A DNA stretch of 64,000 nucleotides from Gemmatimonadetes bacterium 2013_60CM_65_52 (lineage in GTDB: Bacteria > Gemmatimonadota > Gemmatimonadetes > Gemmatimonadales > Gemmatimonadaceae): NCBI GenBank assembly GCA_002215645.1, contig NGFI01000008.1:310001-374000 (forward strand), written 5' to 3'. Both the position numbers and the translations under genes were made by a program. The notes beneath the pieces are model-generated. The model was not told where the DNA came from, made no database searches, and was given only the letters and a program-made list of their open reading frames with translations. Below are positions 15,675-31,679 of the stretch, in pieces. Numbering within the stretch: the stretch's first letter is position 1; each line of letters opens with the position of its first letter.

Positions 15675-16829
15675 ATGCGCATCGCGCTTGCCTGCGACTG
15701 GTTCCTGCCGCGCATGGGTGGTATCGAGCTCCACTTGAGGGACCTCGCCCTGGCTATGCGAGCGCGCGGGCTGGATGCGCGGATCGTCACGACCACCGAG
15801 GGCCAGGACGACGTCGAAGGCGTCCCGGTGCACCGCATACCAGCACTGCGCCTGCCTCGGTCGGGCGTCGCGGTTTCACCGCTCCTCGGGCGCGCCATCT
15901 CTCGCGCGATCCGCGACGAAGGATTCGACCTCGTCCACGCGCACGCCAGCGTCGTTTCTCCCACGGCCTACACGAGTGCCGTCGCGGCGTCGCGGATGGG
16001 AATTCCGACCGTGCTGACGTTTCACTCCATGCTGCACAGCGCGTCGTTTTTCCTGGGCGCTACCGATGCCCTGCTCGGATGGACGGACGGCATCGTTCTC
16101 ACCGCGGTAAGCAGTGTCGTCGCTCGGCAGGCCGCGAGCTGGATGCCCGGGGCCAGCGTCGGCGTTCTGCCCAACGGTGTGGACGTCGCGTTCTGGCACG
16201 GTCCTCCACGACGCCGCAGCGCGGAGGACGTTCACTTCGTGAGCGCCATGCGAATTTCACGGAAAAAGCGTCCGTTGGAGCTGGTGCGTGCCTTCGCCGA
16301 CGCGCTCCGCTTCGTCGCCCGAACGCCGACAATGCACCTCACTATCGCGGGTGACGGGCCAGCTCGTGCGCCAGCAAAACGGCTCGCGGCGGAGCTCGGC
16401 GTCGCTAATTGCGTTTCGCTACCCGGCCACCTGAGTCGCGATGAGCTGCGTGCACTCTACGGTGGCGCTGACGTCTTCGTGCTACCGAGCGAGCGTGAGG
16501 CATTCGGCATCGCCGCACTCGAGGCGCGCACGGCGGGGCTGCCGGTCATCGCGATGCTGGCGGGTGGGGCGCGAGACTTCATCGCACCGGGCACCAACGG
16601 ACTCCTGGCGCGCGATCACGCCGAGTTGCCGCGCATCATGGCGCGCGTCGCACTCGATCCGGCGTTGCGGGAGTTCATCCGCGCGCGAAATCGCGTCGTC
16701 GCCCGGGAATACGACTGGCACGCCGTGGTGGACGACCACCTCGCGATCTATCGCGCGGCGGCGGCGCTGCGGAAAGCACCGGCGCCTACCGCCCACAACA
16801 GCCCGGGCAGCGCGAGCGCAGCGAAGTAG
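15675..16829 (+). CDS. Glycosyltransferase family 4 protein
   Basis: The 384-residue GT-B enzyme has the N-terminal glycine loop LPRMGGIELHLRDLA, the hinge VLPNGVDVAFW and the C-terminal nucleotide-sugar site LPSEREAFGIAALEARTAGLPVI with the Glu-x7-Glu motif. It should transfer a sugar from a nucleotide donor during polysaccharide or glycolipid assembly; donor and acceptor are unknown. It lies eight bases after the Wzi-like gene. Its last 82 bases overlap the convergent membrane-protein gene, and the final 25 residues are a low-complexity Ala/Pro tail. Confidence 0.85.
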   Translation: MRIALACDWFLPRMGGIELHLRDLALAMRARGLDARIVTTTEGQDDVEGVPVHRIPALRLPRSGVAVSPLLGRAISRAIRDEGFDLVHAHASVVSPTAYTSAVAASRMGIPTVLTFHSMLHSASFFLGATDALLGWTDGIVLTAVSSVVARQAASWMPGASVGVLPNGVDVAFWHGPPRRRSAEDVHFVSAMRISRKKRPLELVRAFADALRFVARTPTMHLTIAGDGPARAPAKRLAAELGVANCVSLPGHLSRDELRALYGGADVFVLPSEREAFGIAALEARTAGLPVIAMLAGGARDFIAPGTNGLLARDHAELPRIMARVALDPALREFIRARNRVVAREYDWHAVVDDHLAIYRAAAALRKAPAPTAHNSPGSASAAK

Positions 16830-17710
16830 CAGGCGTGCTGCACCACCGCGATTCCCGCGGCGACATCGGCGGGGATGCCCAACGCGACATACGCCATCAC
16901 GACCGCCGTTTCGTACACGCCGAGATTTCCGGGGACGACCGGCAGCAGCGTCGCGAGGTTGAGTGTCGCGAGCACGAGCAGGCCGCCGGAGAGCGGCAGC
17001 GGCACGTCGAACGCACGCGCGACGCAGAGGATTGCGCTGATCTCCACGAGCTTCTTCAGGAGCGCCAGCAGAAGCGCCGGAACAAATCGGCCAGGGTCGC
17101 GCAGCGGCATGAGGCACGAAGCGAACGTCCCGAGGGCGTTGGCGGCCCGACGCGGAAGCAGTGCCGCAATTCGCGAGCTTTCCGGCGACGGATGCCAGGC
17201 GAGATAGAGACACGCGCTGAGGAGAATCAGGACGCCGCCACACAACGTCAGGACGCCACGCGCCATCCACGCGGGCAGTGGATTGGTTAGAGCGGCGGCG
17301 CCGATGACGGCGACCTTCGCCATGCCGACGAGGAGCTGATCCATCACGCTCACCGAAACCGCAGAGGCGGGCTCCAGGCCGATCTGCGTCACCAGCAATG
17401 CCGCTCCGGCCGCCTCGCCCACCAGCAGCGGTGTCGTATTGAGCGCGGACGACGTCAGCGCCACGACGCCGAGCATGTTGGGAAGCGTGTTGCCGGCCGT
17501 GCGTGGTGCGAGCAGGCGCCACTGTGCCGCCCACAGCGGCAGAATCACCATGTAAAGCACGCACGCGAGCACCAGCCACCCGTGTCGCACACCGGCAATG
17601 GCCAGCGCGATGCGCGCGAGCTCGAGCCGCTGCGTCGCGTGCCAGACGAGGAGTCCGAGCATCAGCACGGCCGCACTGCGCGCAATCAAGCGCAAACGCC
17701 GCGCGTTCAT
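16748..17710 (-). CDS. Flippase-like / LPG-synthase transmembrane-region protein
   Basis: The 320-residue integral membrane protein has about eight hydrophobic segments and the family pattern of the lysylphosphatidylglycerol-synthase transmembrane domain (AglD/MprF-N-like). Typical pieces are AAQWRLLAPR, SALNTTPLLVGEAAGAALL and LLPVVPGNLGVYETAVVMAY. It lacks the soluble aminoacyl-transfer domain of MprF, so a lipid-linked substrate flippase role is more likely. Its start overlaps the stop of the deacetylase gene upstream (ATGA), implying one operon. The 3' end overlaps the convergent glycosyltransferase by 82 bp. Confidence 0.78.
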   Translation of the reverse strand: MNARRLRLIARSAAVLMLGLLVWHATQRLELARIALAIAGVRHGWLVLACVLYMVILPLWAAQWRLLAPRTAGNTLPNMLGVVALTSSALNTTPLLVGEAAGAALLVTQIGLEPASAVSVSVMDQLLVGMAKVAVIGAAALTNPLPAWMARGVLTLCGGVLILLSACLYLAWHPSPESSRIAALLPRRAANALGTFASCLMPLRDPGRFVPALLLALLKKLVEISAILCVARAFDVPLPLSGGLLVLATLNLATLLPVVPGNLGVYETAVVMAYVALGIPADVAAGIAVVQHACYFAALALPGLLWAVGAGAFRSAAAAR

Positions 17711-18426
17711 GCGGTCTTCGACGCAGTCATCAGCTCACGCATCGGAAGAAATGCTGCGCCACGCTGCACGAACAGGTCAATCACTTCGCGCAGGGCATTC
17801 AGCGCAAAGGTCCCGGTGCGAAATCGACAATCGAGCCGGAGCCGCTCGCGGCGAAGGTCGACGAACTCCCAGGGATGCACGAACAGAACGACGGGATCGG
17901 CAAGCGCGCGCAGCCAGGGATCGCGGATCGCGCGCGGAAGCCGGAGCACCGACGACGTGACCGACGCGGGAATGCGGGTGAGCGGCGCGTGCTCGCGCCG
18001 CCTGTGATAGGCTCGCTTGTACTTCGCGAGCGACGAGTCGAGCGTGAACCCGGCCGCGGAGAGCAGGGGGACGTATTTCTCGGGAAAGCGCAGATATGGC
18101 GCGCGGAATGACGTCACCGGCGCGAACGTCCGAAGAACTTCCGTGGACGTCTCGATCTCCCATTGCGCTGCCCGCTCGTCGAGCTTGTCGAACGCGGTGT
18201 GCGTCACGCCGTGACAGCCGAGCTCGTGCCCCGCCTGCACGACCGCAGCAACCGCAGCGGGATATCGCTCGGCTACCTCGGCGGTGGTAAACCAGGTCGC
18301 GCGAACGCCGCGCCGATCCAGAAGATCGAGGAGCGCCGGAGCGCCCTGCTCGACACCGCGGAAGGTGGAGCTCAGGTACGGCGGGCAGTCGGGCTCGAAG
18401 TCGACCGTGAGGGAAACGCGCGTCAC
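17707..18426 (-). CDS. Polysaccharide deacetylase (NodB-like)
   Basis: The 239-residue protein shows the NodB-type carbohydrate esterase 4 motifs: TVDFEPDCP with the catalytic/metal Asp at the start, ATWFTTAEVAERYP, HELGCHGVTHTAF with the zinc-binding His-x3-His-like pair, and TSFRAPYLRF. It should remove an N-acetyl group from an amino sugar in a glycan or glycolipid. A GTG at 18426 was chosen because it gives the canonical start just before SLTVDFEPD; the frame is open to 18468, which would run up to the tRNA. The downstream gene is the flippase-like protein, with overlapping codons. Confidence 0.82.
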   Translation of the reverse strand: MTRVSLTVDFEPDCPPYLSSTFRGVEQGAPALLDLLDRRGVRATWFTTAEVAERYPAAVAAVVQAGHELGCHGVTHTAFDKLDERAAQWEIETSTEVLRTFAPVTSFRAPYLRFPEKYVPLLSAAGFTLDSSLAKYKRAYHRRREHAPLTRIPASVTSSVLRLPRAIRDPWLRALADPVVLFVHPWEFVDLRRERLRLDCRFRTGTFALNALREVIDLFVQRGAAFLPMRELMTASKTA

Positions 18427-18467
18427 TGAGGCTCGAGTGTGGTGATCGGCTGTCCCTGTCCGGCGCA

Positions 18468-18541
18468 TGGGCCCTGCTGGATTCGAACCAGCGACCGATG
18501 GATTATGAGTCCACTGCTCTAACCAACTGAGCTAAGGGCCC
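18468..18541 (-). tRNA. tRNA with anticodon CAU, probably tRNA-Ile2 (lysidine type)
   Basis: On the minus strand a complete cloverleaf is present: acceptor GGGCCCT/AGGGCCC, D-arm AGCTCAGTTGGTTAGAGC, anticodon loop CTCATAA, and T-arm GCTGGTTCGAATCCAGC. The discriminator is A and no CCA is encoded. The anticodon CAU could mean Met or the Ile2 species whose C34 is modified to lysidine. The body resembles E. coli tRNA-Ile2 (CCTTAGCTCAG, GACTCATAATC, GGTCGCTGGTTC) more than elongator tRNA-Met, so Ile2 is favoured. Confidence 0.93.
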
Positions 18542-18630
18542 GCAACGCCCGAAAGGTAGTCCGCCGGATGGTCCCCGCCAATGCGACACCGCCTCTACTC
18601 GGTGACGATGCACCGGTACACTTTGTTCTC

Positions 18631-19668
18631 ATGATTGCGGTCGTCACGGGCTCGTCGGGCTTCATCGGGTCTCACGTCGTGGATGCGCTGCTTGCCCGGG
18701 GCGCGACGGTTCGCGTTCTTCGCCGCCCGGAGAGCCCGGCGTCCCACGATCCGCGCGTTGCGCAATGGACCGCCGACCTGCTCGACGACCGTTCCGTGCG
18801 CGAGAGTCCCATCTGGAAGGACGTCACGCACGTCTTTCACGCCGGTGGTGTCACGAAGCGGCGAACGCTCGCCGAATTCAGATACGGGAATGTCGTTCCG
18901 ACGGCGAACATTCTCTCCGCGCTCGTGGCTCGTGGCAGACGCGTGCCGCGCTTCGTGTATCTGTCGTCGCAGGCGGCGGCGGGGCCCGCCGCATCCCCCG
19001 ATCGCCCGGTGCAGGAGACCGACCCGCCGCATCCCATCGAGGCGTACGGACAGAGCAAGCTCGAGGCGGAAGAGGCGGTCTCGCGCTATGCCGGTCAGCT
19101 TTCCGTAACGATTCTGCGTCCGGGTGCAGTATACGGTCCGCGCGATGTGGACTTTCTGAAGGCGTTCAAGGAAGCTCGGCGTCGGATCGCGTTCCACGCC
19201 GCTCCGCGCGACCAGGCCCTGTCGGTCGTCTACGTCCGCGATCTGGTTCATGCCGTCCTGCTCGCGGGAGACCATCCGGCGGCTTCGGGACGCACCTATT
19301 TTGTCGCCGCCGGCGATGTGGTCACCTGGAACCACATCTACCGGGGCGTCGCGAAACTGGCTGGCACCGTACCCCTCGAGATTCAGCTTCCGCGCGCAGC
19401 GATGTGGGTTGCCGGCCGGGCGGGAAACTTGCTGAGCCTGGTGAGCGGACGGCATTTCCTTCTCAATGCCAACAAGATCGCGCTGTCGCGTCCCAGATGG
19501 TGGCTGTGTGACGCCACCCGCGCGAAACGCGAGCTGGGCTGGAGCGCTACCACGACGCTCGCGGATGGCCTCGAGGAGACGTATCGCTGGTACCTTGATG
19601 CGGGGTGGCTGCGAGCGAAGTCGCCCGCAGCAGCAACGAAGTCGGGCACGCTGGAGAAGCATTCCTGA
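18631..19668 (+). CDS. NAD-dependent epimerase/dehydratase family reductase (CerR-like candidate)
   Basis: The 345-residue extended SDR begins with VVTGSSGFIGSHVVDALLARG, has VFHAGGVTKRRT, a catalytic Ser region YLSSQAA and the Tyr-x3-Lys pair in EAYGQSKLEAEEAV, then RPGAVYGPRD. It is directly upstream of the fused acyl ligase-oxoamine synthase gene and probably in one transcript with it. In the bacterial ceramide pathway described in Caulobacter, a reductase of this extended-SDR type (CerR) acts beside serine palmitoyltransferase. By that analogy this enzyme may reduce a 3-keto (dihydro)sphingoid or ceramide. A sugar-nucleotide or 3-beta-hydroxysteroid-like role is an alternative. ATG 18631 was preferred over 18568. 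Confidence 0.8.
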   Translation: MIAVVTGSSGFIGSHVVDALLARGATVRVLRRPESPASHDPRVAQWTADLLDDRSVRESPIWKDVTHVFHAGGVTKRRTLAEFRYGNVVPTANILSALVARGRRVPRFVYLSSQAAAGPAASPDRPVQETDPPHPIEAYGQSKLEAEEAVSRYAGQLSVTILRPGAVYGPRDVDFLKAFKEARRRIAFHAAPRDQALSVVYVRDLVHAVLLAGDHPAASGRTYFVAAGDVVTWNHIYRGVAKLAGTVPLEIQLPRAAMWVAGRAGNLLSLVSGRHFLLNANKIALSRPRWWLCDATRAKRELGWSATTTLADGLEETYRWYLDAGWLRAKSPAAATKSGTLEKHS

Positions 19669-22600
19669 GCGACTTGAGGTTCGACGATGCCCGCCAGGCG
19701 GGCTGCCGCACGCTGACGGACGTGCTGGAGCATCGCGCGACGCGAGATGGCGCGCGCATCGCGTGCCGCTTTCTGTCGTCATCCGGAGACGAACAGGACG
19801 TGCTGACCTATTCTGGTCTCCACGAGCGCGCTGCCCGTTTCGCGGGATCAATCGCCAAGTGCACCGAGCGCGGCGACCGCGTCGTAGTGTTGCTGCCTCC
19901 TGGGCTGGACTACGTCGCCACGCTGTTTGCCTGCCAGATGGCGGGCGTCATCTGCGTGCCGGCGTATCCCCCGAATCCACGTCGACCGGACGGTCGCGTC
20001 GCGAGCATCGTGGCGGACTGCGGCGCTCACGTCGCGATTGTGTCGGCCGCGTTGCACCACCGTCTCGATGCGTACATCGCCGCATCGCCGACGTTGGTGA
20101 GCGTGCGCTGGCTCGACGTCGAGTCGTTCGCCGGAGCGACTCCGCTGTCATCGCCGCGCGGAAATTCCGCCGATGCACTCGCGTTCCTGCAATACACGTC
20201 GGGCTCCACCGGCGATCCGCGCGGCGTCATGCTGCCGCACTCCGCGGTGCTTCACAATCTCGGCGTCATCATGCGGCAGACGAAAACGCGCGAGGACGAC
20301 GAGGCTGTCCTCTGGGTGCCGCCCTATCATGACATGGGACTCATCGGCGCCATCCTGCAGCCGGTGTACGCCCGCTACCCCGTCAATCTTCTCGCGCCGG
20401 CAACCTTCTCTCAGTTTCCCGTGCGGTGGCTACAGGCGCTCACGCGCTACCGCGCGACGACCACGGCCGCACCCAACTCCGCGTACGACCTGTGCGTCGA
20501 GCGCGTCACCGACGACGAGAAGGCGGGCCTCGATCTCTCGCGTGTCCGTCAAGCACTGAATGGCGCGGAGCCGATTCGTCCGGAGAGCATCGAGCGTTTC
20601 GTCGCCGCATTCGGGCCACAAGGATTCTCCGCGTCCGCGTTCCTTCCGTGCTACGGGCTCGCTGAAGCGACGCTCTTTGCCGCGGGAATCTCTCGCGACG
20701 AAGCGCCGCCGGTGATCACGGTGGACCGTGCGCTCCTCGAGGCGCGGCTCTTCGGCGTCGCCGACAGTGGCAACACCGTGTCTCTCGTGAGCGTCGGGCC
20801 GCCGGCCGACGAGCTCACCATCCACGTCGTCGATCCAGCGCGAGGCGTGCGCTGCGAAGCGGACGAGGTCGGCGAGATCTGGATTGCCGGCGGCAGCGTG
20901 GCCGCCGGCTACTGGGGCCGCGAAGCCGAGACGGCCGAGATCTTCCACGCCCGGCTCGAGGGCAGTGACCAGACGTTTCTTCGCACGGGCGACTTCGGCG
21001 TCATGCACGACGGCGAGCTGGTGGTCACGGGCCGGCTCAAGGATCTCGTGATCGTCGGGGGACGAAACTTCTATCCGCAGGATCTCGAGCATGCCGCGGA
21101 GTCGGCCCACCCACACGTGCGATCGGGCTCGGTGGCGGCGTTCAGCACCGGCGCAGAGGGAAGGGAGCGGGTCGTCGTCGTGGCGGAGGTCGCGCGTCAC
21201 CACCACTCGGCGGATGGCCCCGCGGTCACCGGGGCCGTACGAGCTGCCGTCGCAGACGCCCTTGGCGTCCGCGTGGACGAGGTCGTGCTGATCCGGCACG
21301 GCATGCTTCCCAAGACGTCGAGCGGCAAGCTGCAACGCCGCCTCACGCGCGCGCGCTTCGAGTCGGGCGAGCTTGCTCTCGTCGCACCACTTCCCGAGGC
21401 GCGGCGAAGCACAGCGAGCGCCGAGCCGGCGACGAGCACTGAACGTGCGGGAGAAATCCGCACGTGGCTCCGCGAGTATGCGCGCGAGCGGCTCGATTCG
21501 CGTGGCATGGATGAGCGGCGCGAGCTGCCGGCGGACGTGATGCGCGAGCTCGCCGCGCACGGATTGTTCGGGTTGCAGACGCCGGCGTCGCTGGGCGGCA
21601 TCAGCCTCACCAACGCGGACACGATGCGGGTCATCGAGCAGCTCGCGGCCATCGATCTCACGCTCGCCACCTATGTCGGCGGCCATAACTCGTTAGGGCT
21701 CCGTCCCATTCTGCGATTCGCGGCGCCAGAACTGCGAGACACCATCGTCCCGCCGCTTGCACGCGGCGAACGCCTTGCGGCTCTCGCGCTCACCGAACCT
21801 GCCGCCGGCTCCAACCCCTGGGCCATCGAATCCATCGCGCTGCCCGATGACCCCGGGTGGAGACTGCATGGCGTAAAGAGCTGGATCGGCTCCGCCGGCG
21901 TGGCGAGCACGTTCAACGTGTTCGCGCGCATTCCGGGTGACGACGGCGGCATCACGGCCTTCGTCGCACACGCTGGAACGCCGGGACTGCGTGTGGGCGA
22001 CGCCGCGCTCACGCTCGGTATGCGCGCGATGCTGCAGAATGCCGTGCATCTCGAGGGCGCGTACGTGTCTCGCGAATCCGTGCTGGGCCATGTCGGCGGC
22101 GGAATCGACGTCGCCCACGACACGTTCCTCCATGCACGATTCGGCGTCGCGGCCATGTGTCTCGGCGGCATCAAGCGCGCGCTCCAACTTGCCAGCCGAT
22201 ATGCGACGCGGCGGAGGGTGGCGAGCGGCCGCCTCGCCGATCATCCTGCCACGCGCGCGCGGCTCAGTGCGATCGCGGCGTCTGCATGTGCGCTCGATGC
22301 CTATCTCGCCACGCTCGCCCATGCGCTCGACGAGGGCACCGCAATCGGCGAGGATGCGTTCACGATCTGCAAGACCGCCGCGCCGGAACTGCTCTGGGAG
22401 GCCGTCGATGCGGCCATGCAGTTGGTCGGTGGACGCGGGTACATCGAGACCAATCCACTCGCGCAGCTCCTGCGCGACGCGCGTCTCCTCAGGATTTTCG
22501 AAGGGCCGACGGAGCCGTTGCTGGTGCATCTCGGCGCGCGCGCCATGCGTGAGACGGATGCGCTGCGCGATCTCCTGGCCGTTCGGCTGCAAGCGCCCGA

Positions 22601-24548
22601 CGTCGCGCATCGGCTTGCTGATGCGACGGAGCGGGCGACAGAGCGCCTCACGAGAGTGGGGCGTGGCGCGTCACGGGCTCAGGCGCACCAGTGGTCGTCG
22701 TATCTCCTCGGGACCGCGGCAACGTGGGGTGCGATGGCGGCCTCGGCGCGGATCGCGCGCAACACTGGCATTGCCGGAGCGGAAGTGGCCGTCGCATTGC
22801 TCGAGGAGCGATTCGAGCACGCCATCAGTCGCTGCCGGGCGGCCGATGCCGTCGAGCGTAGCGCTTTTGCTTCAGAGTCACTGGACGCCGCGGTCGTGTG
22901 GGCCAACGGCGGCATCGGCGACGTCGAGCAGCGAAGCAACACCGCGCTGGACCCGATGCTGCATCCGGAATGGGGCGAGGCCAGCGGAACTCGGCCCATG
23001 GAATCAGCGCGTCGCGAACGTTTCGCTGCGTCGACGCCGCCAGCGTCACTGGCATTCATCCTCGGTTGGCTCTCGGATGAATTCCAGATTCCGGCGGAGT
23101 CGCTGAGCGCGGAATCCAGCCTTCGTGACCACGGTCTCGATTCGCTCGCGGCTACGAGGCTGGTGGTGGCACTCGAGACACACCTCTCGCGGCGCATAGA
23201 CGCATCGCAGCTCTGGCGCTCGGCCACCATCGCTGAATTTGCGGCTGCGCTCGAGGGAAGCACGATTCCGGCGGAGCCGATTCCGACTCTGGCCGCTTCG
23301 CGCGCCGGTGCGTCCGACGTACTCGCCATCTCGCATTGGCCGGAGTATCGCGCCCTGCGCGCGAGACTCGCGGAGGCGGAGAACGAAGCGCCCAACCCCT
23401 ACTTCGCCATGCACGAGGGCATTTCCGCGGCGACCGCCGTCGTCGCGGGCCGCGAGCTGCTCAACTTTTCCAGCTACAACTACCTTGGCCTGTCCGGCCA
23501 TCCCGAGGTCACCAACGCTGCCCAGGAGGCGGCCGAGCGGTATGGGACGTCCGTTTCGGCGAGCCGCATTGCGTCCGGTGAGCGGCCATTGCACCGCGAG
23601 CTCGAGCAGGCGCTCGCGACATTCGCCGGCGTGGACGACGCATTGGTCTTCGTGGGCGGGCATGCGACCAACGTCTCAGTGCTCTCGCACCTCTTCGGGC
23701 CGGGCGACCTCGTGCTCTGCGACGCACTCATTCACAACAGCGCACTACAGGGCGCTGCATTTTCAGGCGCGCGCTGGGTCACGTTCCCGCACAACGATTG
23801 GGGCGCGTGCGACCGCATGCTCGCGGACCTTCGCTCACGCCACCGGCGGACGCTCGTCGTCATCGAGGGCGCGTATGGCGCCGACGGCGACATCCCCGAT
23901 CTCGCGCGGTTCGTCGAAGTGAAGTCGCGGCACGGCGCCATGCTGATGGTCGATGAGGCGCATTCCCTCGGCGTGCTCGGGCGGTCTGGCCGTGGCGTCG
24001 CCGAGCATGCCGGTGTGGAGCCCGGGGCGATCGACATTCTGATGGGCACGTTGAGCAAGTCGCTCGCGAGCTGCGGCGGGTACATCGCCGGCAGCGAGGC
24101 CTTGGTGGAGTACCTGAAGTACACCGCACCCGGATTCGTTTACAGCGTGGGCATCACGCCACCAAACGCTGCGGCGGCATTGGCGGCCCTTCATGTGCTG
24201 CGTCGTGAGCCGGAGCGCGTGCGTCGCGTTCAGGCAAACGCCGCCGCGTTTCTGCGATATGCGCGTGACGCCGGTCTCGACACCGGTCACGCACTCGGCA
24301 CGGGCGTCGTTCCCATCATCATCGGTGATTCCATGCGCGCCATGCGCGCCTCGCATGCACTGTTCGAGCGCGGCGTGAACGTCCAGCCGATGATCAGTCC
24401 GGCCGTGGCCAATGACGGCGCACGACTTCGCTTCTTCGTGTCCAGCGAACACACCGACGTGCAGTTGCGCGATGCGGTGCGGCTGACGGCGGAATCGCTT
24501 TCGATGGATCGCGATGGTGGTGCCCTGACTCTCGCGGTTCGCTACTAG
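19605..24548 (+). CDS. Fused fatty acyl-AMP ligase / acyl-CoA dehydrogenase / ACP / alpha-oxoamine synthase
   Basis: One 1647-residue polypeptide carries four modules (numbering from GTG 19605). (1) A fatty acyl-AMP ligase, residues about 25-590, with QYTSGSTGDPRG at 196-207, PPYHDMGLIG, CYGLAEATL and GRLKDLVIVGGRNFYPQD near 476-493. (2) An acyl-CoA dehydrogenase, about 617-985 plus a helical extension, with ALTEPAAGSN, the LVGGRGYIETN block and the probable catalytic Glu966 in RIFEGPTEP. (3) An acyl carrier domain, about 1145-1220, with the phosphopantetheine serine Ser1180 in HGLDSLAA. (4) A PLP alpha-oxoamine synthase, about 1250-1640, with DEAHSLGVLG at 1450-1459 and PLP Lys1485 in GTLSKSLASCGG. 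By family logic the ligase loads a fatty acid on the ACP, the dehydrogenase makes a 2-enoyl chain and the last domain condenses it with an amino acid, probably serine. TTG 19674 is an alternative start, five bases after the upstream gene. Product identity is inference; domain calls are firm. Confidence 0.9.
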   Translation: MAASEVARSSNEVGHAGEAFLSDLRFDDARQAGCRTLTDVLEHRATRDGARIACRFLSSSGDEQDVLTYSGLHERAARFAGSIAKCTERGDRVVVLLPPGLDYVATLFACQMAGVICVPAYPPNPRRPDGRVASIVADCGAHVAIVSAALHHRLDAYIAASPTLVSVRWLDVESFAGATPLSSPRGNSADALAFLQYTSGSTGDPRGVMLPHSAVLHNLGVIMRQTKTREDDEAVLWVPPYHDMGLIGAILQPVYARYPVNLLAPATFSQFPVRWLQALTRYRATTTAAPNSAYDLCVERVTDDEKAGLDLSRVRQALNGAEPIRPESIERFVAAFGPQGFSASAFLPCYGLAEATLFAAGISRDEAPPVITVDRALLEARLFGVADSGNTVSLVSVGPPADELTIHVVDPARGVRCEADEVGEIWIAGGSVAAGYWGREAETAEIFHARLEGSDQTFLRTGDFGVMHDGELVVTGRLKDLVIVGGRNFYPQDLEHAAESAHPHVRSGSVAAFSTGAEGRERVVVVAEVARHHHSADGPAVTGAVRAAVADALGVRVDEVVLIRHGMLPKTSSGKLQRRLTRARFESGELALVAPLPEARRSTASAEPATSTERAGEIRTWLREYARERLDSRGMDERRELPADVMRELAAHGLFGLQTPASLGGISLTNADTMRVIEQLAAIDLTLATYVGGHNSLGLRPILRFAAPELRDTIVPPLARGERLAALALTEPAAGSNPWAIESIALPDDPGWRLHGVKSWIGSAGVASTFNVFARIPGDDGGITAFVAHAGTPGLRVGDAALTLGMRAMLQNAVHLEGAYVSRESVLGHVGGGIDVAHDTFLHARFGVAAMCLGGIKRALQLASRYATRRRVASGRLADHPATRARLSAIAASACALDAYLATLAHALDEGTAIGEDAFTICKTAAPELLWEAVDAAMQLVGGRGYIETNPLAQLLRDARLLRIFEGPTEPLLVHLGARAMRETDALRDLLAVRLQAPDVAHRLADATERATERLTRVGRGASRAQAHQWSSYLLGTAATWGAMAASARIARNTGIAGAEVAVALLEERFEHAISRCRAADAVERSAFASESLDAAVVWANGGIGDVEQRSNTALDPMLHPEWGEASGTRPMESARRERFAASTPPASLAFILGWLSDEFQIPAESLSAESSLRDHGLDSLAATRLVVALETHLSRRIDASQLWRSATIAEFAAALEGSTIPAEPIPTLAASRAGASDVLAISHWPEYRALRARLAEAENEAPNPYFAMHEGISAATAVVAGRELLNFSSYNYLGLSGHPEVTNAAQEAAERYGTSVSASRIASGERPLHRELEQALATFAGVDDALVFVGGHATNVSVLSHLFGPGDLVLCDALIHNSALQGAAFSGARWVTFPHNDWGACDRMLADLRSRHRRTLVVIEGAYGADGDIPDLARFVEVKSRHGAMLMVDEAHSLGVLGRSGRGVAEHAGVEPGAIDILMGTLSKSLASCGGYIAGSEALVEYLKYTAPGFVYSVGITPPNAAAALAALHVLRREPERVRRVQANAAAFLRYARDAGLDTGHALGTGVVPIIIGDSMRAMRASHALFERGVNVQPMISPAVANDGARLRFFVSSEHTDVQLRDAVRLTAESLSMDRDGGALTLAVRY

Positions 24549-24585
24549 GATCCCACCGGCGCGGACGAGCTCACCAATTCACCAA

Positions 24586-24616
24586 CGCCGTCGGCATGAT
24601 GCCGGCGGCGTTTTTT
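24586..24616 (+). terminator. Intrinsic terminator after the fused lipid enzyme
   Basis: CGCCGTCGGCA (24586-24596) pairs with TGCCGGCGGCG (24600-24610), all Watson-Crick except one T-G pair, with a three-base loop and six T residues. It lies 38 bases after the stop codon and isolates the sphingolipid-like transcript from the barrel gene. Confidence 0.88.
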
Positions 24617-24754
24617 CTCGCAGCCTCAGGCGTTCGTGAACGAAATCTTTGTCAGTCTGAGCTCGCTGCATTCCAGGATGGAGGCACAGGCATTGCGCCG
24701 ATGTACTCGTGCCTCGGCGACGTATTCATGGGCTCGATGCATTGGAGGATTCAC

Positions 24755-25876
24755 ATGGCAACCTTATTTTCACGCGCACATTCGCTGACTACCGTCGTGA
24801 CACTTGGCGCGGTCCTGGCCGGTGTCGCGAATGCGCAGGGGACCACTTACCCTGCGCAGACCACGACTCACCCCGTAAACGAGACGCGACAGGTGGCGAG
24901 CAAAAGCTCAGCCTGTCCATCGGCACCGTCGCGGAAGACGAGCAGCACCGCGTCTGACACGAGCATGACGGACAGCACGCGGATCGCGAAGTCCGCGAGC
25001 TGTCCAAAGGTGAAGCGCACCAGCTCGCATCGCACGAAGAAAACCTCGTCCGGCGGCGAAGTCGCATTGACTTCCTCCAGCAGCCAAGGGACATCATCCG
25101 TCCGGATCCCCGTGTCGAAAGAAGTGGCCGCGGCACCGGTGGAAGCTGTAGCACCGGCGCCGGCACCGGCACCAGTCGTCGTGGAATCGACGACGGTGGC
25201 GGTCGAGACCCCCGCTCCGGCACCAACACCAGAGCCGTTGCCGCCACAGTTGCCCATGCCGCGCAGATCACTGGGGAACTTCTACGTCGGCATTGGCGCC
25301 GGTGGGAGCGTGCCCGTCGACAACATGCGGAATGGCTATGGCACCGGCTGGAACGCGACCGGGCTGCTTGGCTATGACTGGCGGGATATCCCGCTCGGCA
25401 TTCGTCTCGATCTTGGCTACGATCGACTCAAGGGACGCAGCAGCGTCGGTGTCACCGGCGACATCGCGACATATACAGCCAACCTGGACGGGAAGCTGTG
25501 GCTCGGGTCGTTCCTGAGTCATTTTTACGGACTCGCGGGCGTTGGGGCGAGCCGCGTAGTTGGCTACGGCAGCATCTACGGCGCCAATGCAACGAGCCCC
25601 ACGGGCACGTATTCAACAACCACGCCTCCGCCGACCGTGTCATCGACACCGACGAATACCTACAACGGGACCTATCCGTACGGCGCCCCGGGCATGGCTA
25701 CGTCGTTCTCCGACGCGCCAACCAACATGAACTGGCATGCCGGCGGCGGCTTCGAGTTCGGCGTCGGTCACCAATCCGTCTTCATCGAATCACGCTACTT
25801 CCACGTCGACACGAAGAACGCGCTCGGCGCGAGCACGAAGTTTGTGCCGATCATTCTGGGAATAACGTTCCACTAA
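24755..25876 (+). CDS. Outer-membrane beta-barrel protein with Ser/Thr/Pro-rich linker
   Basis: The 373-residue protein begins with a signal peptide (cleavage probably after VANA, near residue 27). Residues about 30-165 are low complexity: a Ser/Thr/Lys-rich stretch, then a Pro/Ala/Val/Thr linker with repeated APAPAP units. The rest is a small OmpA-like or opacity-type barrel beginning GNFYVGIGAGGSVPVDN and ending in an aromatic-terminated strand (VPIILGITFH). The linker may cross the periplasm or bind glycan, but this is a guess. ATG 24755 has GGAGG at 24744-24748. The role is unknown. Confidence 0.72.
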   Translation: MATLFSRAHSLTTVVTLGAVLAGVANAQGTTYPAQTTTHPVNETRQVASKSSACPSAPSRKTSSTASDTSMTDSTRIAKSASCPKVKRTSSHRTKKTSSGGEVALTSSSSQGTSSVRIPVSKEVAAAPVEAVAPAPAPAPVVVESTTVAVETPAPAPTPEPLPPQLPMPRRSLGNFYVGIGAGGSVPVDNMRNGYGTGWNATGLLGYDWRDIPLGIRLDLGYDRLKGRSSVGVTGDIATYTANLDGKLWLGSFLSHFYGLAGVGASRVVGYGSIYGANATSPTGTYSTTTPPPTVSSTPTNTYNGTYPYGAPGMATSFSDAPTNMNWHAGGGFEFGVGHQSVFIESRYFHVDTKNALGASTKFVPIILGITFH

Positions 25877-25916: not shown

Positions 25917-26915
25917 CTAGTCCTCTTCCTCGCGCTTCGTTTCGCGTGAGCGTCGCGCGCTGTGTTGTGCCATGCGCGCCTGCATGACCTGGACTTTCAC
26001 CGGCGGCGGAGGCTTCGGGGGTTTGGCCGGTCGAGGCGGCCGCTCGATGCGGCTCGCGATGAAGATGGTACTGGCGCCGACCATTGCGCCGGCGATGATG
26101 TCCGTGGCGTAATGGAACCCTGCGTAGACCGCGCCGATTCCGAGGAGCACCGTCATGAATGCCGCGGCAATGCCGAGCTTCCTCTGGAACCTGATGGCGC
26201 AGTACGAGGCCACCACGGCGGCCGCGACGTGCGACGAGGGAAACGCGCTGCCGTGTGAGGAGAAATTCTGGAGGATCATGATTGCCAGAGCGCGCACGAA
26301 CCCACGCGGAGCCGCCGCCGGGCCGTTCACGAAGCGTGGTCCATCCACCGGAACGGCGATCGACCCCACGTAGCAGATGACGTACGCGATCACGAGCGAC
26401 AGCACCGTGAACGCGAACTCACGCCGCCGGTCCTTGAACCAGAGCAGAATCGGCGGCACGAACACGATCGGGTAATAGGACAGGTAGGCCAGATGCAGCA
26501 GCTCGCTCACGGCCGCGACCTGGAAGTGCTGTGCCCAGGAGCTCGAGATGCGCGAGTGGAAGAGCGTCACGTCGAGTGCCGCAATCGCGTGATCCTTCCG
26601 CGACATGCCGATGCCGCCGACGACCCAGCGAAGCTCCACGTACAACAGCGGAATGAGCGCGAGCGGCAGCCATGCGCGAGCCGGCCGGATCTTCTCGGGC
26701 AGCGTCAGGAAGACGCAGGCCGCCGCCACGCCAAGCGCGAGCAGGTGCACCACGAGGGCGCCGCGGGAGGCGTTGACGACGCTCCAGCGAATTATCGGGA
26801 CCGTGGTGGCGAACAGGTACCCCGCGACGAGGAACAGCGACAGCCGCGTCAGGCGCTCGGCTCTTTTCGCGGTTTCCTCTATGTCCACCTCCCTCGTGCG
26901 GCCTGATCCGTCCAT
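25917..26915 (-). CDS. PAP2-superfamily membrane phosphatase/phosphotransferase
   Basis: The 332-residue protein has about six membrane segments and two PAP2 motifs: SHGSAFPSSH (residues 220-229) and GFHYATD (266-272), containing the catalytic histidines. The N-terminal part, with YLSYYPIVFVPP and PVDGPRF before the motifs, resembles the AUR1/inositolphosphotransferase-like branch. The C-terminal 45 residues are Pro-rich then strongly charged and cytoplasmic. PAP2 enzymes remove phosphate from, or swap head groups on, lipid phosphates. Its nearness to the sphingolipid-like genes makes a head-group role conceivable but unproven; undecaprenyl-diphosphate recycling is another option. Confidence 0.8.
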   Translation of the reverse strand: MDGSGRTREVDIEETAKRAERLTRLSLFLVAGYLFATTVPIIRWSVVNASRGALVVHLLALGVAAACVFLTLPEKIRPARAWLPLALIPLLYVELRWVVGGIGMSRKDHAIAALDVTLFHSRISSSWAQHFQVAAVSELLHLAYLSYYPIVFVPPILLWFKDRRREFAFTVLSLVIAYVICYVGSIAVPVDGPRFVNGPAAAPRGFVRALAIMILQNFSSHGSAFPSSHVAAAVVASYCAIRFQRKLGIAAAFMTVLLGIGAVYAGFHYATDIIAGAMVGASTIFIASRIERPPRPAKPPKPPPPVKVQVMQARMAQHSARRSRETKREEED

Positions 26916-27001: not shown

Positions 27002-28057
27002 ATGAAATTGCTCCATGTCGTTGGCGCAAGGCCCAATTTTCCCAAGCTCGCGCCGGTGCATCGCGCTGGCGCCGTGCGGGGTGTGGAACAGGTCGTGATG
27101 CACACCGGCCAGCATTACGACGACGCGATGTCCGCGTCGTTCTTCGCGTCGCTGGGCATCCCGGAGCCCGACGTCAATCTCGCCGTCGGCTCGGGTTCGC
27201 ATGCACAGCAGACCGCGCGCATGCTCGAGCGCATGGAGCCGGTGTTGCTGGAGCATCGTCCTGACTGGGTCGTGGTGTACGGCGACGTCAATTCCACTCT
27301 TGCCGCGGCCGTCGTCGCCTCGAAGCTCGGACTTCGCGTCGCTCATGTGGAGGCTGGACTCCGGAGTGACGACCTCACCATGCCCGAGGAGATCAACCGC
27401 ATCGTCACCGATCGCCTGGCTGCGCTGCTGCTGACGCCCTCGCGCGATGCGAGCGAGCGCCTGAAGCAGGAGGGCGAGCCTGACGAGCAGATCGTGTTCG
27501 TCGGAAACGTCATGATCGACACCCTCCGCCGTACCGTGCAGCAAATGGGATTGAGCCGTCCCGCAACGCTACAGGATGACGCACCGGTCGCCGTCACGCT
27601 GCACCGGCCGTCGAACGTCGACGACCCGACGCGCCTCGGAACCATCATGGCCGGCTTGCGTGACGTCGCGCGCCATCGCCCCGTGCTGTTTCCGGCGCAT
27701 CCTCGAACGCAGCGACAGCTCGAGCAGGCCGGCATCGGCACCGACGGCATCGAGATGTCGGGTCCCATCACGTACGAGGCCATGCTCTCGCTCGTGATGC
27801 GCTCGCACGTGGTCGTCACCGACTCCGGCGGCCTTCAGGAAGAAACCACGGCGCTCGGCATTCCGTGTCTCACCTTGCGTGACAACACCGAGCGTCCCAT
27901 CACCATCACCCAAGGGACCAATCAGCTCGTGCGCGATCTGACGGCAATTCCGGCACTCGTCCGTGCCATCGACGCCGGCGCACCAAAGCGTCCCGCACCC
28001 GAGGGATGGGATGGGCACGCCGGCCCACGCGTGATCGAGGCATTGTTGGCGCGATGA
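27002..28057 (+). CDS. wecB: UDP-N-acetylglucosamine 2-epimerase (non-hydrolysing)
   Basis: The 351-residue enzyme matches WecB: HVVGARPNFPKLAPV at the start, HTGQHYDDAMS, YGDVNSTLAAAVVASKLGLRVAHVEAGLRS, PEEINRIVTDRLA, the catalytic His in VTLHRPSNVDD, and TDSGGLQEETTALGIPCLTLRDNTERPIT. It interconverts UDP-GlcNAc and UDP-ManNAc for surface polysaccharide. The ATG is at 27002; the stop overlaps the start of the GNAT-like gene (ATGA), so both are made together. Confidence 0.93.
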   Translation: MKLLHVVGARPNFPKLAPVHRAGAVRGVEQVVMHTGQHYDDAMSASFFASLGIPEPDVNLAVGSGSHAQQTARMLERMEPVLLEHRPDWVVVYGDVNSTLAAAVVASKLGLRVAHVEAGLRSDDLTMPEEINRIVTDRLAALLLTPSRDASERLKQEGEPDEQIVFVGNVMIDTLRRTVQQMGLSRPATLQDDAPVAVTLHRPSNVDDPTRLGTIMAGLRDVARHRPVLFPAHPRTQRQLEQAGIGTDGIEMSGPITYEAMLSLVMRSHVVVTDSGGLQEETTALGIPCLTLRDNTERPITITQGTNQLVRDLTAIPALVRAIDAGAPKRPAPEGWDGHAGPRVIEALLAR

Positions 28058-29187
28058 CGCTCGAGATCGTGCCCGTGAAGTCCCGCCGGGACCTTCGGCG
28101 GTTCGTGAACCTGCCATGGACGCTCTACAACGAGGTCGAGCATCCACACTGGATTCCTCCACTGCGCGTGACGACCTACGACGCGCTGGATCGAACCAAG
28201 CCCTTTTACCGCGACGCCGAGCGCGAGCTTTTTCTCGCCGTACGCGACGGGAAGGTTGTCGGCCGGATCGCCGCCATCGAGAATCGCGCGCATAACAGGT
28301 ATCACAACGATCGCGTCGGCTTCTGGGGATTCCTGGAGAGCGTTGAAAATCAGCCGGTGGTGGACGCGCTCTTTGCCGCCGCCGGAAGTTGGCTCGCCGG
28401 GCGAGGACTCGACGTCATGCGCGGTCCCGTCATGCCGAGCACCAACTACGACTGCGGGCTGCTGGTGGACGGATTCGAGCACGATCCGTCGTTCATGACG
28501 CCGTGGAATCCGCCGAGTTACGGAACGTTGGTGGAGCAGGCGGGGCTGACGCGCGTGAAGGATCTCGTGGCGTACTTCATCCCGATGTCGGACGACAGCT
28601 TCCGGTTGCCGCCGGCGTTCGAGGCATTTGCCTCGCGAGCACAGACCAAGAGCGCGCTGACGTTTCGCGATCTCGATCTCTCGCGGTGGGACGCCGAGCT
28701 GGAGCTGTGCTGGGACGTCTACAACTCGGCGTGGGAGGAGAACTGGGGCTTCGTCCCGATGACGAAGGACGAATTCATCGTGATGGCGAAGGATCTCAAG
28801 CCCCTGTTGATTCCCGAATTTGCGTTCATGGCGGAGATGCAGGGGCAGCCGGCGGGCTTCATGCTCATCGTGCCGGACTTCAATCAGATCCTCAAGACCA
28901 ATCGCGGCGGGAGGCTCTTTCCGTTCGGGGCGGTGAAGATGCTGCTCGGAAAGAAGAAGCTGCGGACGGGACGGATCATGGCGCTGGGCATCAAGCGGGA
29001 GTTCCGTACTCGGTCGATCTTTCCGCTCTTCGTCTACGAGTCGTTTCGGCGGGGGAAGGCGTACGGGGCAGTTGGCGCCGAGGCGAGCTGGATTCTGGAG
29101 GACAATGAGCTGTTGCTAGGGCCGCTCAAAGCGCTTGGCCTGAAAGAGTATCGCCGGTGGCGGATGTACGACGGCGTCACGCGCTGA
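28054..29187 (+). CDS. GNAT-fold N-acyltransferase, candidate bacterial ceramide synthase (bCerS)
   Basis: The 377-residue soluble protein starts with IVPVKSRRDLRRFVNLPWTL. It continues through HPHWIPPLR, FLAVRDGKVVGRIAAIENRAHN, GPVMPSTNYDCGLLVDGF and ALGIKREFRTRSIFPLFVYES, with an overall GNAT-like plan. From memory this is the pattern of the family that includes the N-acyltransferase joining a second fatty acid to the sphingoid base in Caulobacter; no search could be run. The window also has an oxoamine synthase and a CerR-like reductase, which supports the idea. Against it, the gene is translationally coupled to wecB and precedes an MBOAT gene, so an acyltransferase for polysaccharide is possible. 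Confidence 0.6.
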   Translation: MTLEIVPVKSRRDLRRFVNLPWTLYNEVEHPHWIPPLRVTTYDALDRTKPFYRDAERELFLAVRDGKVVGRIAAIENRAHNRYHNDRVGFWGFLESVENQPVVDALFAAAGSWLAGRGLDVMRGPVMPSTNYDCGLLVDGFEHDPSFMTPWNPPSYGTLVEQAGLTRVKDLVAYFIPMSDDSFRLPPAFEAFASRAQTKSALTFRDLDLSRWDAELELCWDVYNSAWEENWGFVPMTKDEFIVMAKDLKPLLIPEFAFMAEMQGQPAGFMLIVPDFNQILKTNRGGRLFPFGAVKMLLGKKKLRTGRIMALGIKREFRTRSIFPLFVYESFRRGKAYGAVGAEASWILEDNELLLGPLKALGLKEYRRWRMYDGVTR

Positions 29188-29199
29188 AAGAGAATCGCC

Positions 29200-30618
29200 A
29201 TGCTCTTCAATTCGTTCGAGTACCTGTTGTTCCTTCCAATGGTACTCGCGCTCAATTATGCGCTGCCGGTGGGCAAGCGCTGGGCGCTGCTCCTGGTCGC
29301 GAGCTGCTACTTCTACATGGTGCTCGTTCCCCAGTACATCCTCGTGCTGGCGGCGATCATTCTCTTCGATTTTGTCGCGGGCCGAGTGATCGAGAATGCC
29401 GTGGGAGTGCGGCGAAAGACGCTTCTCGTCGCCAGTATCGTGGCCAATCTGGGGCTGCTCGCTGCGTTCAAGTACCTGAATTTCTTCGGCGCGACGCTGG
29501 TGGATGCCGCGAAGCTGCTGGGCCTCGAATATCACTACAAGCCGGTCGGATGGATTCTGCCTCTGGGTCTCTCGTTCCACACCTTTCAATCTCTGAGCTA
29601 TACGATCGAGGTGTATCGCGGTCGATTTCGGGCCGAGCGTCACCTGGGAAAGTACGCCCTGTACGTCATGTTCTTTCCACAGCTCGTCGCGGGTCCCATC
29701 GAGCGGCCGTACAACCTGCTGCCCCAACTGCATCGGCCTCGGCCGCTCGACTATGCGACCGTGGTGTCCGCACTGCGGCTCATGCTGCTTGGCTTTGCAA
29801 AGAAAGTGCTCATTGCCGACAACCTGGCCGCACCGGTCGGCGTGGTGTACGGAAATCTGCCCGGCAGCTCCGGTCCGGCGATTCTGGTTGCGACGTATTT
29901 CTTTGCGTTTCAGATTTACTGTGACTTCTCGGGGTATACCGACATCGCGCGAGCATCGGCCGGACTTCTGGGTGTAAACTTGATGGAGAACTTCAAGAGT
30001 CCGTACCTGTCCCAGACCCTTCAAGAGTTCTGGCGGCGGTGGCACATCTCGCTCACGACATGGTTTCGAGATTACGTCTACTTCCCGTTGACTCGACGGC
30101 GGACGCTGCACACCCATCCTCGCCTCAACCTTGTCATCGTGTATCTCCTGAGTGGACTGTGGCACGGTGCGCGATGGACCTACGTGCTGTCGTTTGGCTA
30201 TCAGGGAGCGCTCGTCGCAGCATTTAGACCCAAGCCATTGAATCGCCGAGTTCCAGGTACCATCGGTGTATTCTGGCGTACATTTCTGACCTTCAACATC
30301 GTCGCGTCGGGCTTCATTATCTTCCGCGCCGCCACGCTTTCGGACGCCGGAGCAGCGTACGCTGGACTCCTGCACGGATGGGGAACGCCAGCGCTGGATG
30401 TTCTACGAGAGACCGGCGTCTCCGCTGCGCGTGCGTGGTTGCTCGTGAGCCTCGTCGGAGCGCTCCTCACCTTTGAGTTCCTGAGCGCCCGCCCCCGTTG
30501 GCGGATGGCCTTTGCTTCCTCTCCCGCAGTTCTGCGTTGGAGCCTGTATTACTCTGTACTCCTCTCCATCGCGCTTTTCGCGAGGGGAGGTCAGCAGTTC
30601 ATCTACTTCCAGTTTTGA
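29200..30618 (+). CDS. MBOAT-family O-acyltransferase (AlgI-like)
   Basis: The 472-residue polytopic protein has the AlgI/DltB hallmarks: NSFEYLLFLP at the start, GLSFHTFQSLSYTIEVYRG, MFFPQLVAGPIERP, WRRWHISLTTWFRDYVYFPLTR and the catalytic His in LLSGLWHGARWTYVLSFG. Such proteins move acetyl or other acyl groups across the inner membrane for O-acylation of polysaccharide. The next gene encodes an SGNH-like partner, the usual pairing in exopolysaccharide acetylation systems. ATG 29200 lies 12 bases after the preceding gene. Confidence 0.9.
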   Translation: MLFNSFEYLLFLPMVLALNYALPVGKRWALLLVASCYFYMVLVPQYILVLAAIILFDFVAGRVIENAVGVRRKTLLVASIVANLGLLAAFKYLNFFGATLVDAAKLLGLEYHYKPVGWILPLGLSFHTFQSLSYTIEVYRGRFRAERHLGKYALYVMFFPQLVAGPIERPYNLLPQLHRPRPLDYATVVSALRLMLLGFAKKVLIADNLAAPVGVVYGNLPGSSGPAILVATYFFAFQIYCDFSGYTDIARASAGLLGVNLMENFKSPYLSQTLQEFWRRWHISLTTWFRDYVYFPLTRRRTLHTHPRLNLVIVYLLSGLWHGARWTYVLSFGYQGALVAAFRPKPLNRRVPGTIGVFWRTFLTFNIVASGFIIFRAATLSDAGAAYAGLLHGWGTPALDVLRETGVSAARAWLLVSLVGALLTFEFLSARPRWRMAFASSPAVLRWSLYYSVLLSIALFARGGQQFIYFQF

Positions 30619-30634
30619 GGAAAGGCGCGCCGAA

Positions 30635-31594
30635 ATGAACCGTTTGTTTTACCGACTAGCACTCTTCCTCGCGCCCCTCGTGCTCATGCTTGCCGCGGTG
30701 GAAGTCAAACTGTCAGGCTTCTCGAACATCTACAGCAGGCGCTCGGCCGCTCTGGACCGGGTAGCGGACCAGGTGCAAATCCTCCTCGTCGGTAACTCAC
30801 ACGCCGGAACCGGAATTGATCCGCGCCATCTTCCAACTGCGGCGTTCAGTCTCGCGTTCCCCGGCCAGAGTACGATTGTAGATGCAAGGCTTGCCTCGAC
30901 GATGTTCCGCCGTCTTCCGCGGTTGCGCCTGCTGATAGTGGGTATCGGTTACGGATCGCTGCGTTACCGCGAGTCGAGTATCGGCGATTACGGACGCGAC
31001 GAGTTGTTCTGGCAAGCATTTCGGCTGCGCGAAGATGGCAACCGTTTCGCAGGAGTCTTGAGTCCCTATCGGTATTTGCGCTTCCTTGCGTATCGCCCGT
31101 TCGGCCCGCGCGCGATGCTGTTCGGTGATTCGCTGCGGTTCGCGAGCGTGGTGTCGCAAGAGGGATGGCAAGTATTGGATTCGACGACGCGGGCGAACAT
31201 GAGTTGGCGGGCCGCGTCCGCGATCGCGGCTTCGCAGGAGGCCGCCTTGCATCGAGAAGACATTGCGGACACCATGCGTGAGCTTCGTGCCGTGCTGTCG
31301 CAGGCATCGCAGCAGCGAGTGCGCGTCGTGTTTGTAACGCCGCCGCTGTCTTTTGCCTATCGGGCACAACTCATCGATTCGATATGGGACGGAGACCGAT
31401 CGAGAATTCAAGCCTTGGCGAACACGTGTGGCGCGAGCTTCCGCGACTATGCGGCAGATCCACGCTTCGGCGCCCGAGACTTCTTCGACGTCGAGCATCT
31501 GAATGCGCGCGGCGCGAAGAGATTCACGCGCATCCTGTCGGACGAGGTCGTAGGTACCGTCCTTGCCGAGGGAGTGGGCGGACCATCCTGTTGA
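30635..31594 (+). CDS. SGNH-hydrolase-like membrane-anchored protein, partner of the MBOAT protein
   Basis: The 319-residue protein has an uncleaved N-terminal membrane anchor (residues about 8-24) followed by an extracytoplasmic domain. The SGNH block I is seen as [12 protein letters not shown] near residue 49 and the terminal Asp-x2-His as [11 protein letters not shown] near residue 290. In AlgJ/AlgX- or PatB-like systems such proteins take the acyl group from the MBOAT partner and place it on the glycan. The ATG at 30635 has GAGGAAAGG upstream; it follows the MBOAT stop by 16 bases. Confidence 0.75.
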
Positions 31595-31679
31595 GCGGGA
31601 ATGCTCCGACGGAGGGTGCGAAGGATTATGTTTCTCCGACGACCTGCCGGGGACGGCGGATACCCATCACGACGTGACC

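Follow-up and report, generated by a model that had tools for sequence, protein, structure and literature searches.

A putative one-chain starter synthase for a sphingoid base in a predicted ceramide locus of Gemmatimonadaceae

Which lipid would be started by a protein that joins a fatty acyl-AMP ligase (FAAL), an acyl-CoA dehydrogenase (ACAD), an acyl carrier protein (ACP) and an alpha-oxoamine synthase (AOS) in a single chain? The question is raised by a gene at positions 19605-24548 of a 64,000-nucleotide stretch (hereafter the window; contig NGFI01000008.1, positions 310,001 to 374,000) from Gemmatimonadetes bacterium 2013_60CM_65_52. The best single account, to which we assign a probability of about one half, is that the chain is a starter synthase for a sphingoid base, with FAAL, ACAD and AOS acting in succession. 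A sphingoid product of some kind is probable. The more specific proposal of a delta-4 (sphingosine-type) base, made through all the steps by desaturation of the acyl-ACP before condensation with serine, is tentative and falls somewhat short of even odds.

The reading frame runs from a GTG codon through 1647 residues without an internal stop. A preliminary description of this DNA had read four modules in the order acyl-AMP ligase, dehydrogenase, ACP and AOS, and the domain searches returned the same order: Pfam AMP-binding at residues 41-437 (5.6e-66), Acyl-CoA_dh_N/M/C at 613-979 (down to 2e-33), PP-binding at 1156-1216 (2.3e-12) and Aminotran_1_2 at 1284-1625 (8.6e-44). The first module scores far higher with the NCBIfam fatty acyl-AMP ligase models (PRK05850, 412 bits; FadD32, 395 bits) than with the acyl-CoA ligase model PRK06187 (171 bits). 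Glu966, Ser1180 and Lys1485, which the same description had singled out as key residues, are all intact at those positions. The exact start of the frame is uncertain, given that the GTG overlaps the upstream short-chain dehydrogenase/reductase (SDR) gene by 64 bp and that homology to FAALs begins at about residue 30. G+C content at third codon positions (GC3) is high and uniform across the FAAL, ACAD and AOS modules (0.79-0.82), and neighbouring genes are alike. The gene lies in the interior of a contig of 480 kb, and the genome is of good quality (14 contigs, 97%-complete), making a chimeric join unlikely; together with the continuous frame, the uniform GC3 and the synteny kept on both flanks, this ruled out a chimeric assembly.

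The genes around it are those of a predicted ceramide locus, judged by a bCerS homologue, an SDR that is the best match to CerR, and the recurrence of the arrangement in relatives. In E. coli B and Caulobacter crescentus, the ceramide genes encode AasR (a FAAL), AcpR, Spt, bCerS and CerR (PMC9386255). The bCerS homologue, 3.5 kb downstream of the four-module gene, is 31% identical to YghO, the bacterial ceramide synthase of E. coli B, over 379 aa (E 1e-66) and was the sole match when the genome was searched with YghO (3.4e-61). A whole-genome search with E. coli B CerR gave the adjoining SDR as its top match (1.6e-16), at 26-28% identity (26% over 315 aa) within the broad family of extended SDRs. 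Four genomes of the genus (G002, G003, G004, G008), followed as far as each contig extends, share the order HflX, Wzi, GT4 glycosyltransferase, flippase-like protein, deacetylase-like protein, SDR, FAAL-ACP-AOS, PAP2 and bCerS. A bCerS homologue stands beside FAAL-ACP-AOS in eight genomes (G003, G004, G008, G164, G052, G147, G129, G172), and the three-module gene is also next to bCerS and/or the SDR in further genera of the family. The locus thus resembles the AasR-AcpR-Spt-CerR-bCerS system (PMC9386255), in which a FAAL-family ligase passes its product to a dedicated ACP and on to serine palmitoyltransferase (SPT), with a bCerS homologue and a CerR-like SDR nearby in the window. It differs in that those are five separate proteins, whereas the ligase, ACP and AOS of the window form one chain that also includes an ACAD. 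It differs from the E. coli B set, too, in the AOS, which belongs to another clade, and in the low identity of both AOS and FAAL (34% each, the latter to AasR).

The AOS was placed in a tree of 60 sequences, the deep branches of which are only moderately supported (89-90). It falls in a clade (UFBoot 100) with all sampled FAAL-ACP-AOS proteins and AOSs linked to polyketide synthases (PKSs; L155 and others), including Pseudomonas AOSs that adjoin a type I PKS. The canonical SPTs fall in a clade apart, which comprises the enzymes of Sphingomonas, E. coli B and Sphingobacterium together with SPT-like AOSs from other Gemmatimonadota. Since other Gemmatimonadota carry AOSs of the canonical clade (L016, L017, L019-L021, L025, L032, L033), the phylum appears to hold two SPT types. 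BioF or KBL identity was ruled out: the tree places both outside, and the scores (331 bits against a cut-off of 426 for bioF, 273 against 460 for KBL) are too low. The sphingoid direction taken in the preliminary description is thus supported by the neighbouring bCerS homologue and CerR-like SDR and by an AOS that groups with SgaB-type enzymes, apart from BioF (8-amino-7-oxononanoate synthase) and KBL. The other AOSs of the genome are a KBL encoded beside tdh and a separate BioF-like protein, which leaves the window AOS as its sole SPT candidate. The BioF-like AOS (L003 / L167, G000:C8:47104-48198) scores below the BioF cut-off and its gene overlaps that of a FabF-type ketosynthase by 4 bp; it may be something other than a plain BioF.

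A characterised reference is SgaB of Pseudomonas fluorescens MYb115, a demonstrated SPT that is virtually exclusive for L-serine (PMC12134224). The window AOS shares its clade with sgaAB-type Pseudomonas AOSs, to which it is 57-58% identical (56.8% to H42). A plasmid from Pseudomonas sp. TMW 2.1634 carries a PKS and an AOS, followed five genes on by an SDR, which is the sgaA-sgaB-SDR layout, and the gene spacing fits that of the sgaA, sgaB and sgaC locus tags in MYb115. By analogy, L-serine would most likely be the amino acid substrate. The resemblance to SgaAB ends with the acyl supply: there, an iterative PKS builds the chain and the AOS is separate (PMC12134224), whereas the FAAL of the window is predicted to take a ready-made fatty acid, with all parts fused.

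An AOS that uses alanine, glycine or another amino acid, and so makes a deoxy- or amino-ketone lipid, possibly a secreted natural product rather than a ceramide, is unlikely, although it is the alternative that survives best. The residues expected of an SPT are kept (the Lys, the stacking His, the Asp/His pair at the PLP ring and an Asn; roles after PMC10196870). The stretch near the substrate side chain reads SASR throughout the window clade, a signature of its own that could favour a different substrate, as against A/T/N-G-S-R in canonical SPTs, and many clade members have no bCerS nearby. However, SASR is common to the sgaAB-type Pseudomonas AOSs, the group of the near-exclusively serine-using SgaB, and the gene is flanked by the only bCerS homologue of its genome and by the top CerR match. 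The families returned for the ACP-AOS part included no prodigiosin- or tambjamine-type (PigH/TamH) model, and no PigH/TamH sequence was compared. A study of Nostoc punctiforme (PMC8895605) was set aside as counter-evidence; the protein tested there is called a BioF homologue and the only AOS of that strain by its authors, and is not described as fused.

The FAAL and ACAD modules have different affinities. In the FAAL tree, the window module groups with FAALs of the FAAL-ACP-AOS proteins of the family (moderate support), and the FAALs of FAAL-ACAD-ACP loading modules lie on another branch. In a small ACAD tree, by contrast with the FAAL result, the window module groups with ACADs of FAAL-ACAD(-ACP) proteins, split with full support from FadE-type enzymes. 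Its homology to the corresponding module of a Burkholderia stagnalis FAAL-ACAD-ACP protein extends over the full length (41% identity over ~527 aa). The same group contains a Gloeocapsa FAAL-ACAD-ACP protein encoded ahead of PKS genes, as well as FAAL-ACAD proteins from two genomes of the genus, one of which (in G009) is encoded beside P450 and condensation-thioesterase genes. Enduracidin Orf45 is likewise a FAAL-ACAD protein (PMC9113097). As in such loading proteins, the ACAD sits between FAAL and ACP; unlike them, the window chain ends in an AOS rather than feeding a nonribosomal peptide synthetase or PKS. The kinship with FAAL-fused ACADs therefore suggests a lipopeptide or polyketide module that entered a sphingoid chain at the position it usually occupies. 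The ACAD was probably inserted recently, within the genus. Relatives may instead have lost it, given that the AOS tree puts the window protein outside the rest of the family and the FAAL tree puts it near the base.

Where an ACAD gene lies between those for FAAL and ACP in lipopeptide clusters, the acyl chain receives a delta-2 (in one case cis-3) double bond, and the enzyme probably works on the FAAL- or ACP-bound acid (PMC9113097). It is nonetheless conceivable that ceramide synthesis starts here with an ACAD that is inactive or merely structural, yielding a saturated base as in the three-module relatives. Those close relatives lack an ACAD at the same locus, so the pathway can run without one. 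This alternative, next in standing, also appears improbable: the catalytic Glu and the LTEPAAGS motif of the FAD site are both retained, the frame of the module stays open over ~520 codons with normal GC3, and its family is found in modules tied to acyl desaturation.

In the mechanism we favour, the FAAL would activate a free long-chain fatty acid and load it onto the built-in ACP. The ACAD would oxidise the ACP-bound chain to a trans-2-enoyl thioester, probably passing its electrons to electron transfer flavoprotein, and the AOS would condense the 2-enoyl-ACP with an amino acid, most likely L-serine, with loss of CO2, turning acyl C1 into the C3 ketone. Acyl C2=C3 would become C4=C5 of the long-chain base, so that the product would be a 3-keto-sphing-4-enine-type base with its bond at the sphingosine position. 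N-acylation by the bCerS homologue and reduction of the ketone by the CerR-like SDR would then give a ceramide with a sphingosine-type double bond. We infer the serine substrate, the action of the ACAD on acyl-ACP, the position of the double bond and the final lipid. In eukaryotes, C4=C5 is set by a desaturase acting on dihydroceramide (cited in PMC11765627); the route proposed here would differ from this DES route in making the bond ahead of condensation. A search of the genus for Pfam Lipid_DES, the eukaryotic-type delta-4 desaturase, gave no match, but the controls were equally silent and the result is uninformative.

Several points weigh against the one-chain sphingoid synthase. Its AOS lies outside the canonical SPT clade, from which a long stem separates its own, and falls under the NCBIfam SPT cut-offs (302 of 640 and 288 of 500 bits). 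The serine specificity of SgaB is transferred at 57-58% identity from sequences assigned to the sgaAB type by layout rather than by comparison with PfSgaB itself. The ACAD-containing form is known from one genome only. Most FAAL-ACP-AOS genes of Planctomycetota and Cyanobacteria have no bCerS or CerR nearby, and the pair is absent from the vicinity of most members of the clade beyond Gemmatimonadota, so its products may include lipids other than ceramides. Acceptance of 2-enoyl thioesters by SPT-type enzymes is assumed on general grounds. A literature search on SPT with 2-enoyl-CoA returned just a remark on trans-9 chains (PMC11765627). An ACAD that introduces the bond at another position (delta-3, for instance, which would lead to a 5-ene base), or whose product is hydrated or otherwise modified in a later step, is very improbable: the related friulimicin LipB does yield a delta-cis-3 bond despite 60% identity to the delta-2 enzyme of laspartomycin (PMC9113097), but plain ACAD chemistry is alpha,beta-dehydrogenation, and no isomerase or hydratase was found among the annotated neighbours.

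How novel is the architecture? The preliminary description had suggested that a single chain with a built-in dehydrogenase would be new. Fusion of ligase, ACP and AOS turned out to be shared, occurring in Gemmatimonadota, Planctomycetota, Cyanobacteria and others, while a built-in ACAD was not found in another AOS chain. At the same locus, relatives carry FAAL-ACP-AOS proteins of ~1,100 aa with the same module order, 53% identical to the window protein in FAAL and 64-66% in AOS, and alignment shows that they lack the ACAD. When GTDB contigs were scanned for the AOS, at least 80 named loci came up. Roughly half of them encode FAAL-ACP-AOS chains of ~1,100-1,250 aa, in many of which the ACP was inferred from spacing, this small domain often being too diverged for the probe. 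Among the matches listed, these chains come foremost from Planctomycetota, and also from Nostoc and a Desulfobulbaceae (e.g. L082, L085, L090, L095, L119); other loci hold an AOS paired with or fused to a PKS, and in no case does the AOS chain include an ACAD. No second four-module protein was detected in 179 genomes of the family or in a sample of 395 of the phylum, and no match among 72,556 plasmids covered 80% of the four-module query. In the nearest relatives by bCerS, G005 (75%) and G006 (78%), the contigs that carry bCerS either are short or stop close to the expected site of the gene. Within the sequences covered, the ACAD between FAAL and ACP is the unique trait of this AOS chain, and since FAAL-ACP-AOS and FAAL-ACAD-ACP chains both occur elsewhere, only the four-part combination is new.

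A literature search returned no paper on such fused proteins; the FAAL-ACP-AOS chains of Gemmatimonadota, Planctomycetota and Cyanobacteria lack a description there, and their product seems undescribed. Their spread points to many unrecognised producers of amino-ketone lipids, to which searches built on canonical SPT could give low scores or which they could mistake for BioF. If the proposed mechanism is true, one gene would be enough for a simple host to make sphingosine-type bases, and bacteria would have a route to the 4,5-double bond without a membrane desaturase, independent of the eukaryotic dihydroceramide desaturase.

Table 1. Features of the four-module gene and its surroundings, in window coordinates.
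Feature	Position	Strand	Basis
GT4 glycosyltransferase of syntenic block	15675..16829	+	annotation, synteny
LPG_synthase_TM / flippase-like membrane protein of syntenic block	16748..17710	-	annotation, synteny
Polysaccharide-deacetylase family protein of syntenic block	17707..18468	-	annotation, synteny
Extended SDR, CerR-like, inferred ketone reductase of bacterial ceramide synthesis	18568..19668	+	top CerR match, synteny
Four-module protein FAAL-ACAD-ACP-AOS, 1647 aa	19605..24548	+	ORF list, Pfam, NCBIfam, residue check
FAAL module (aa 35-590), predicted fatty-acid activation as acyl-AMP and ACP loading	19707..21374	+	Pfam/NCBIfam, identity to relatives, tree
ACAD module with C-terminal extension (aa 605-1127; stretch past Pfam domain to ~1127)	21417..22985	+	Pfam, alignments, tree
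Predicted catalytic Glu966 of ACAD, in RIFEGPTE	22500..22502	+	residue check
ACP (aa 1156-1216)	23070..23252	+	Pfam
Phosphopantetheine Ser1180 of ACP, in DHGLDSL	23142-23144	+	residue check
AOS module (aa 1262-1626), SgaB-type clade	23388..24482	+	Pfam, NCBIfam, tree
PLP Lys1485 of AOS, in GTLSKS	24057-24059	+	residue check
Terminator-like hairpin, 13 pairs, T tail, directly 3' of four-module gene	24584..24612	+	consensus match only
PAP2_3-family membrane protein	25917..26915	-	Pfam PAP2_3 8.9e-18
bCerS homologue (GNAT-like, predicted ceramide synthase); start probably near 28054	28006..29187	+	homology to YghO

The PAP2_3 protein keeps its place beside bCerS in the genus and weakly matches a phosphoinositol dihydroceramide synthase model; it is possibly a headgroup transferase or a phosphatase. 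To judge by the GT4, flippase-like and PAP2 genes, the ceramide would be decorated and exported. Past the ceramide locus, positions 29200-32726 hold a DltB-like MBOAT, a protein at 30512-31594 without a Pfam match and a GDP-mannose 4,6-dehydratase, an envelope-polysaccharide region.

Further AOS arrangements were encountered in the searches. In G004 (L037, about 8475-8510), the FAAL-ACP-AOS gene is split over two frames, so that either the sequence is in error or the gene is broken. Single-chain PKS-AOS fusions of ~1,600-2,650 aa occur in Planctomycetota, myxobacteria, Ectobacillus and Planktothrix (L097, L106, L125, L137, L136; plasmid L171), with a FAAL gene just upstream in myxobacteria and Ectobacillus. 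Two other lineages of the phylum (L069 in G195, L070 in G281) have stand-alone AOSs, 53-57% identical to that of the window, which adjoin a 2549-aa PKS and a 1751-aa open reading frame (ORF) in an sgaAB-like layout; at L069, an SDR and a bCerS homologue are present as well. An ACP-AOS-like part (29%) lies within a 2585-aa open frame at G009:C120:19271-20653, possibly a PKS or nonribosomal peptide synthetase carrying an AOS. Immediately downstream of the four-module gene, the terminator-like hairpin covers the ATG of the next ORF (24596-25876), which encodes an alanine/proline-rich, outer-membrane-like protein without a Pfam match; given this strong overlapping hairpin, the true start of that ORF is probably downstream of the annotated ATG.

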